From positions 3,040,501-3,104,500 of the forward strand of contig OY987246.1 in the NCBI GenBank assembly GCA_963920765.1: a stretch of 64,000 nt of DNA. The letters are read 5' to 3'. This document shows, piece after piece, positions 24,200-27,100 of this stretch. Within the stretch, counting starts at the first letter, position 1; each line of letters opens with the position of its first letter. Both the position numbers and the translations under genes were made by a program. The DNA is from Ulota crispa. Lineage: Eukaryota; Streptophyta; Bryopsida; Orthotrichales; Orthotrichaceae. The notes under the pieces are model-generated. The model made no database searches, had not been told where the DNA came from, and saw only the letters and a program-made list of their open reading frames with translations.

Positions 24200-27100
24200 T
24201 TAACACTGTGATGAGTCGCTAACTGACAAGCTTTGCTTCTCACAAAAGTTGTTCAGGTGTTGAAAGCGCAGAGGTTCGCTACCCCATGACGTCCAACCAG
24301 CATTCAACTCTCTTGCAAATAACTCCAAGCCCCTGTCAGCTCCTCCCTACCCTGGTACGTACTTCGATAAGATTGCTGTGATGATTTTAAGGATAGAACA
24401 TTTGAGTAACCTGAGATGCTCACATACTAGCATTAAATATAGAAATGGAATACATTCACTTCACTGCAAACAAAACGTCTGGACATTTTGTGCAATGACT
24501 ACGAACATCGTTTATTGGAAGAGATTAGGAGCGGTAACTCACAAAATTCTTAACTATTCAGGGTTAGGTTAGAACATCAGGTATCACTTAACAAATAAGA
24601 AGACTGCAGAAAAAGCAAAGAAACAGAACATATAGAGAAGGCACTCTTGTTTGAGGATTGGATACGTTTCAGAGGCGGCTTCCTGGAATGGTCACCAGGA
24701 ATACTTATGAGAACGTACTTGTCAGGCAATAATACTTGCTCCCTAATGTCTATAGATTGCAAGTTCTGCAAAGCCACAAATGAAACGACTTAAAACCAGC
24801 AACACTCGATAAACTCCTTGTTCGCAAATTCGGCAGAGTTAGGGATAAGCTTGATTTCCAAATTGTGCAAACGTTTGTACAATCCAAAGCAACACGTCAC
24901 CAATGCGAACCATAGCAACTCCAAACCTCTTCTTTTGATGTAGCGGCTCCTTTGCTGGGCAAATAACCGAGAAGCAGGCACTCATATGGCTTGTGGTGAG
25001 CCAAATCCAGAGGGCTCACCATAGTGCCCTCTGCTGTCACCTTTAAATCACAACTATGAGAACGCGAGAAAAAGTGAATGAAGCAGCAAATATGATAAAG
25101 CAAAATGTACAGGTTCATAAAGGCAAAACTTGGGCATTCTTGATCAAAGGCCTGTACCCTATAGATAGGGTAACTTCGAACATCATGCACAAAAGGTGGA
25201 CTTACACCTCAGTAATGACGTAAGAGTTTACTCAAATAGTAGGAAAAGTTAAGCAGTGCGCTACTTAAGCACATCTTTGTAGATTTCGTTGTCCATGAGA
25301 CTCCACAACTTTTAATGATGCATATCGATATCTAGGCAGAAAAAAATAGTTATTTGTAAAAATTAGGTGCACGTACCTTGAGCCAGTACCAGACAGCAGC
25401 CGGACTTACTCCCCAAGCTGGAAAGAGCTCCGTTTCCACAAAGTGACGCAGCTTCTCACGATTGGTAATCCACAATGCCACCAGCGCCCCATCTGCATGA
25501 GCAAGTTGCCTGACTGGCAGAGATAGTAAATATCTATTTGGTATTGTGGGATACCTGCACAATCAGTTGCACTGTTCGGTACTCTGATATTCGTAGTTTT
25601 TGTTTCTAAGGTTGCCAGATGAATGAACGAAGACGTATGATAACGATCTAAGCAATAATCCCGAGCAAACTTACAGAGCTTTCCGATGAACGCTCTTATT
25701 CTCCCAGGGTGGATCAATAACCATCAGATTGAACCCATCTTCCGAGACACCTATCATACCAATCATAAACCCTTAAGAGACTTGTACAAGGGGACAAAGA
25801 TCACATCTAGAAGAAAGTCTGCAAAGCATGGAACATATGCTCATTCAAGCATGGTTTTAGCGCCTGCATTTGAAAAAAACGTGTGCATTCAAACCAGGGT
25901 TACATGGACTATTCAACAAGAATACAAGCGACAGGCCAGAAAGGACCCATGAGAAAAGATCACACGAGTACTGGCAAATATGAGAACTAAGTTAAAAGGT
26001 AAACGTCATTTCACCTGGAATGAGCTGGCTGCAGCTCAGCTATGTCTGACTGTCAAGAGGGACGACAACATTAGGACTAAAGTAATCAACAAACGGTGTA
26101 GCGATAAGTTGATGTATGTAACTTTAACTTCGCAATTCGAATGACAGAAACTTGGAAAATAATCCAAATAAGGCCTAAGAGGGTGCCAACCAAAGTAGAC
26201 TCTTTACTGGAACTGCAACAGGCTAGGAGAATTAGGAACTTTTTTGGACGAGCAGACACTGAGGCAGAAAAGACACCACCTACAATAAGAAATTTGGAAA
26301 ACTTAGGTAGCAAGTACTTGCAGCCTCCACAGTCAGCTACTCCAGACTTTGTGCTTGGGTTGTCAAAAACTGACTTAAACAGAGCACTTGTCCTGAACTC
26401 CTCGTCCTCGCAACCAACCTGCCCTGGACAACAGTGAAACAAACATGAATAAAGCTTGCTTGTGCTTCACGTACCAGTGCCTTACTGTATCGTGCAAGCA
26501 GAACAGCTATATATAAGACATGAAGCCAGAGCGGTTGTCATCAGGGACTAAGAATGCAACTTCTAAAGCAGAATTCGTGTCCAGTGAGGAACATACATTA
26601 TGGAGACATAACTAGAAGGCAGGAGTCTGGTTAGTGTCAGCCCACCTTCCCGCGGACGCTTGTAATACAAGCCAAGAGTATAAATGAGTACTCTAAATGC
26701 TCTCACCGAGCCATCAGCCATGCAAATCTTATATTTTCAAGAAAAATGTAGTAATGCTTTAAAACTGTTCTTCCAGCATAGATCCACTCGATACATTTCC
26801 ACGCGCTTCAGATCTTAATATGCAGCGAAGGACCTCAACTCACCGTTGATGCTCTTCGAAGATGAGATTTCGTACAGCGGAGCCTGCCATAAGCCAGCCA
26901 CCTCCACGAAATTCAGTTCAACTTCCTCCATTGCTGGCTTCTGTATACTTGAACAACTCTTGGATGGAACATTGACGCAGTTTTCACCATCGTTGAATAC
27001 AATGAATCTTCGAAGTAAAGGTGCAACTGTTCCCAAGAAAACTTCATGTGCCTCCAGTACGACCGATCTCACTTCCTGCACTTCCAAATCGTGATGTTTT

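Follow-up and report, generated by a model that had tools for sequence, protein, structure and literature searches.

A probable METTL4 duplicate pseudogene and its intact inverted sister on one contig of Ulota crispa

The window analyzed here, a stretch of 64,000 nucleotides from Ulota crispa, contains on its minus strand a METTL4 gene that is most likely disabled, and an intact sister copy lies in inverted orientation on the same contig, at a distance of about 0.39 Mb. We consider it highly probable (roughly 93%) that the window copy arose by inverted segmental duplication within one chromosome, was selected for a while and was then broken. It looks like an ordinary duplicate pseudogene, that is, a case of duplicate-gene decay rather than of enzyme loss. 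The first-pass annotation of the window had raised the idea that METTL4 was lost in this lineage. This inference fails because of the intact copy on the same contig, and with it the claim that this plant lineage had lost METTL4, and thereby m6Am in its U2 snRNA, is removed. The case carries the lesson that, when a gene looks broken in one window, the remainder of the genome should be consulted.

Structure and lesions of the window copy

To obtain the exons of the window copy the minus strand was read from 29500 to 22500, followed by exon placement beside the sister copy (Table 1). All eight introns begin with GT and end with AG, at the positions also used in the sister, and exon 5 contains the DPPW sequence; the earlier statement that the DPPW site and most splice sites are intact can be upheld.

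Table 1. Coordinates of the METTL4 copy, its exons and the duplicated segment in the window
Feature	Position	Strand	Basis
METTL4 copy, disabled (most likely), nine exons, ATG to displaced stop	24200..28258	-	exon placement beside sister; alignment; MT-A70 match
exon 1, open	27986..28258	-	exon placement
exon 2, open	26844..27075	-	exon placement; RHQE junction continuous in Arabidopsis METTL4
exon 3, open	26284..26423	-	exon placement
exon 4, frameshift, 35 nt vs 34 nt in sister	26015..26049	-	alignment and exon placement
exon 5, DPPW codons; shifted frame ends at TGA 25716-25714	25675..25750	-	exon placement and translation
exon 6, 178 nt, all identical to sister	25377..25554	-	exon placement and comparison
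exon 7	24927..25040	-	exon placement
exon 8	24666..24765	-	exon placement
exon 9, in-frame TAG 24349-24347, altered stop, frame ends at TAA 24202-24200	24200..24375	-	alignment and translation
inverted segmental duplicate, collinear with insertions to C5:2666497-2677822	15686..28936	-	blastn against 140 kb around sister

The phase break between exons 4 and 5 that had been noticed before is real. Aligned to the sister, exon 4 of the window copy has one additional base, and its 35 nucleotides leave two spare bases while exon 5 needs one. The in-frame TAG was likewise found at the coordinates first given: read from 24375, exon 9 encodes PILSKYVPG, is interrupted by the TAG and continues with [20 protein letters not shown]. 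This TAG aligns with a Gln codon (CAG) of the sister, and by exon placement the last exon of the window copy reads [25 protein letters not shown]. A third lesion, absent from the first-pass annotation, is the altered stop codon. The stop of the sister is changed in the window, and the frame of the last exon becomes eight codons longer until it reaches a TAA. The earlier suspicion that the gene is disabled is therefore most likely correct, given the frameshift, the TAG and the lost stop.

If the exon boundaries of the sister are applied, the reading frame of the window copy does not stay open across DPPW and on to the C-terminus. The frameshifted product comprises 238 amino acids and stops at codon 239, which corresponds to the D of DPPW in the sister. 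A transcript, if made, would accordingly end directly before the catalytic DPPW. Exon junctions follow 39, 217, 331 and 431 nucleotides downstream of this TGA, and because three of them are more than 50 nucleotides away, nonsense-mediated decay of the transcript would be expected.

Additional exons were considered and rejected. The microexon between exons 4 and 5 that had been suggested is unneeded, as the sister joins both exons in frame with an exon 4 of 34 nucleotides. An in-frame skip of exon 4 was not found among the exon 5 acceptors scanned. The idea that intron 1 contains a further coding exon (near 27.8 kb) was dismissed as well, since exons 1 and 2 are joined in frame and the RHQE formed there is continuous in Arabidopsis METTL4. 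In this part of intron 1 the window and the sister differ by indels.

The intact sister and the copy number in the genome

The sister is located at C5:2667172-2671216, C5 being the contig of the window. Its nine exons join to 1299 nucleotides with one terminal stop, corresponding to 432 amino acids, and its introns have GT and AG ends (8/8). The encoded protein matches Arabidopsis METTL4 (PDB 7cv6) over residues 13-425 with an E-value of 1.3e-101 and 343.7 bits, 181 of 392 aligned residues being identical; 7cv6 is the only distinct PDB sequence that matches at E up to 0.001. With a score of this height the resemblance of the window gene to METTL4 is not due to chance, and its first assignment as a plant-type METTL4 gene is borne out. 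The alignment begins at query residue 13 and chain residue 11, so that the METTL4-type N-terminal part is present in the sister. Its MT-A70 domain is complete (PF05063 positions 1-172 of 172, 115 bits, cut-off 23.9), and it possesses the DPPW motif as well as D, Y, E and K at the functional Arabidopsis positions D233, Y247, E325 and K364. It is presumably the sister that does the METTL4 work.

The sister answers the earlier suggestion to search the genome for a second METTL4 copy. In 274.8 Mb on 157 contigs, 4.5 kb of the gene used as a DNA query yielded three matches: the gene itself, the sister (C5:2666934-2671440, opposite strand, 93% identity over the 4.5 kb) and a 101-bp piece on C8 with 75% identity. 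All 16 matches of a METTL4 protein search fall into the two C5 loci; while one must keep in mind that this search scores the best candidates only and that a very divergent third copy could escape it. The MT-A70 family search gave six matches, two each on C8, C7 and C5, one of the latter in the window. Those on C8 and C7 are presumably the METTL3 and METTL14 genes. For comparison, a table in PMC6576107 contains four MT-A70 proteins of Physcomitrella.

Divergence between the copies and traces of selection

Between the two copies 51 of 1299 aligned coding bases (3.9%) and 199 of 2719 intron bases (7.3%) differ, and in the 3' flank (23999-22337) 303 of 1590 aligned bases (19%) do so. The synonymous divergence dS is 0.081 and the nonsynonymous divergence dN is 0.027, leading to a ratio of 0.34. 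In exons 4-9 we counted seven nonsynonymous changes with both lineages summed, whereas the window branch by itself should have accumulated 18-20 had it evolved freely since the duplication (Poisson P 0.0007 to 0.0024). The gene as a whole has 26.5 changes compared to 36.5-40 expected (P 0.01 to 0.04), and exons 1-3 show no deficit at all (19.5 compared to 18-20). The shortage in exons 4-9 suggests that the catalytic half of the window copy was under constraint during some of its history. As far as these counts can tell, exons 4-9 only would speak for a late loss. The distribution of indels, one in exons compared to 12 in introns, points the same way without significance (Fisher P 0.07).

The codon-aligned proteins of both copies show 27 differences. 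All but the final two, which lie at the C-terminal end, were compared to Arabidopsis (25 positions), and 20 of these were alignable; among them Arabidopsis has the residue of the sister five times, that of the window copy never and a different one 15 times. At N415S the window copy has S, and N is common to the sister and Arabidopsis.

The two METTL4 copies would go back to a segmental duplication, in inverted orientation, inside one chromosome, and both were probably under selection for some time. Later, the window copy would have gained the one-base insertion in exon 4 and the nonsense codon in its last exon, and would have lost its stop.

Identical runs between the copies

The copies share three long stretches without a difference: 216 bp over exon 6, 182 bp at 24188-24007 and 134 bp inside intron 2. 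When the differences were shuffled 5000 times, no shuffle gave runs of this length; such a test presupposes even rates, and constraint may account for some of these runs. Outside the coding sequence the two copies are identical at 24188-24007 (182 bp, 3' of the stop), 28412-28293 (120 bp, 5' leader) and 26760-26627 (134 bp, intron 2). These noncoding stretches may represent either gene conversion or conserved parts of the transcript. The run in intron 2, together with a gene body that is less diverged than its flanks, would also fit gene conversion, and gene conversion would upset a dating of the loss. The pair could be useful as a small test of whether inverted duplicates undergo gene conversion.

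A structured RNA was rejected as the cause of the conserved stretches. Between 23500 and 29500 Rfam yielded four weak matches at E up to 0.5, all of them within 29145-29279, outside the gene and below their gathering scores. At gathering scores no Rfam match occurs in the whole window, and a tRNA scan reported no genes.

Alternative explanations

The lesions could in principle be bypassed by splicing, with the window copy still making a METTL4 variant. On paper, cryptic acceptors restore the frame and remove the TAG if exon 4 starts at 26039 or 26024 and exon 9 at 24342 or 24339. Of 16 open substitutes enumerated for exon 4, two keep the normal donor (26039-26015 and 26024-26015), and two of the 15 acceptors scanned for exon 9 keep the METTL4 C-terminus. 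One of these, the acceptor after GGGAG proposed at the outset (exon start 24342), does keep the frame, but it is unneeded, and both exon 9 acceptors sit behind nearer AGs within a purine-rich stretch. Moreover, both lesions would need a cryptic site simultaneously, whereas in the sister the ordinary sites suffice to keep the frame. The apparent constraint on exons 4-9 would be in line with a functional variant, but a recent loss would likewise leave the trace of past constraint. We therefore regard such splicing as very unlikely. A combination, in which gene conversion passes sequence between the members of the inverted pair while cryptic acceptors allow splicing of the broken copy into a shorter second METTL4, appears more improbable still; if true, a dead-looking gene would be kept alive by its sister plus altered splicing.

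Alternatively, the lesions might be artifacts. One-base length errors are the commonest kind of error, and the extra base in exon 4 is of this type; both copies would then be functional. This explanation requires several separate errors (the extra base, the TAG and the altered stop), and neither the window nor the 140 kb surrounding the sister contains an N. It is the window copy that has the frameshift, the nonsense codon, the lost stop and N415S, while the sister is unbroken, which makes the errors in assembly that had been considered earlier, or errors in sequencing, hardly credible. The two loci could also be haplotypes of one gene set in tandem by misassembly, as they lie on the same contig at a distance of about 0.39 Mb. 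However, the loci have opposite orientations, collinearity between the window and the 140 kb surrounding the sister is limited to about 13 kb, and the copies differ by 7% in introns and by 14-24% in the 3' flank. Among the explanations weighed here, we give this one the least credence. A disabled copy from an inverted segmental duplication remains the preferred reading.

Neighboring elements

A fold-back (MITE-like) element at 28937-29389 lies exactly at the upstream end of the homology with the sister. Three similar elements occur near C5:2617940, 2638580 and 2732060, within the 140 kb surrounding the sister. On both strands the element in the window matches MIR7696 and MIR6024 below threshold, the best match reaching 52.8 bits where the gathering score is 83. 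Next to the gene, at 29768-30710 and 31003-31947, lie repeats of about 0.94 kb, which have relatives of roughly 70-84% identity in the 140 kb around the sister and probably represent a transposable element family.

Five frames of the window have 130 or more amino acids, and four of them were scanned. The frame at 10425-10910 matches the end of DDE_Tnp_1_7, a piggyBac-type transposase (E 1.2e-07, positions 302-347 of 349); the other three scanned gave no match. Among 48 psaA/psaB matches (including L027-L030), two are on the plastid contig and 46 are fragments on nuclear contigs, some of them with stops. The nuclear fragments would represent many plastid-to-nucleus transfers. Compared to PDB, the plastid PsaA of this genome (contig 157) obtains its highest scores with 8htu (1733 bits) and 6l35 (1712.8 bits), followed by 9lut (1697.7 bits). 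6l35 comes from the moss Physcomitrella (PMC7884438). With 8htu being from Physcomitrium, the protein makes a moss the probable source.

Comparison with known systems

Arabidopsis METTL4 (At1g19340; PDB 7cv6) is the U2 snRNA Am31 N6-methyltransferase of the MT-A70 family. It was reported to make m6Am at Am31 of U2 snRNA, its Y, E and K were reported to be needed for activity, and a version with DPPW changed to APPA does not rescue the mutant, according to PMC9512776. The sister shares DPPW and the Y, E and K with the Arabidopsis enzyme; the window copy, in contrast, is truncated before DPPW. U2 snRNA genes are present in the genome (30 matches), and in the four loci that were read (L031-L034) position 31, counted by eye, is an A in all cases. 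This agrees with a kept METTL4 pathway, although it is no proof of it.

Within the titles and abstract openings of the literature searched, neither this pair nor a bryophyte METTL4 pseudogene is reported. As in unprocessed duplicate pseudogenes of plants, the window copy keeps its introns and flanks, and an intact parent is present in the genome. The paralogue has the same exon-intron layout, and the disabling changes, that is the frameshift, the nonsense codon and the lost stop, are confined to one copy, as they are in such pseudogenes. Compared to this class there is nothing unusual about the window copy, with the exception of the long identical runs it shares with its sister.
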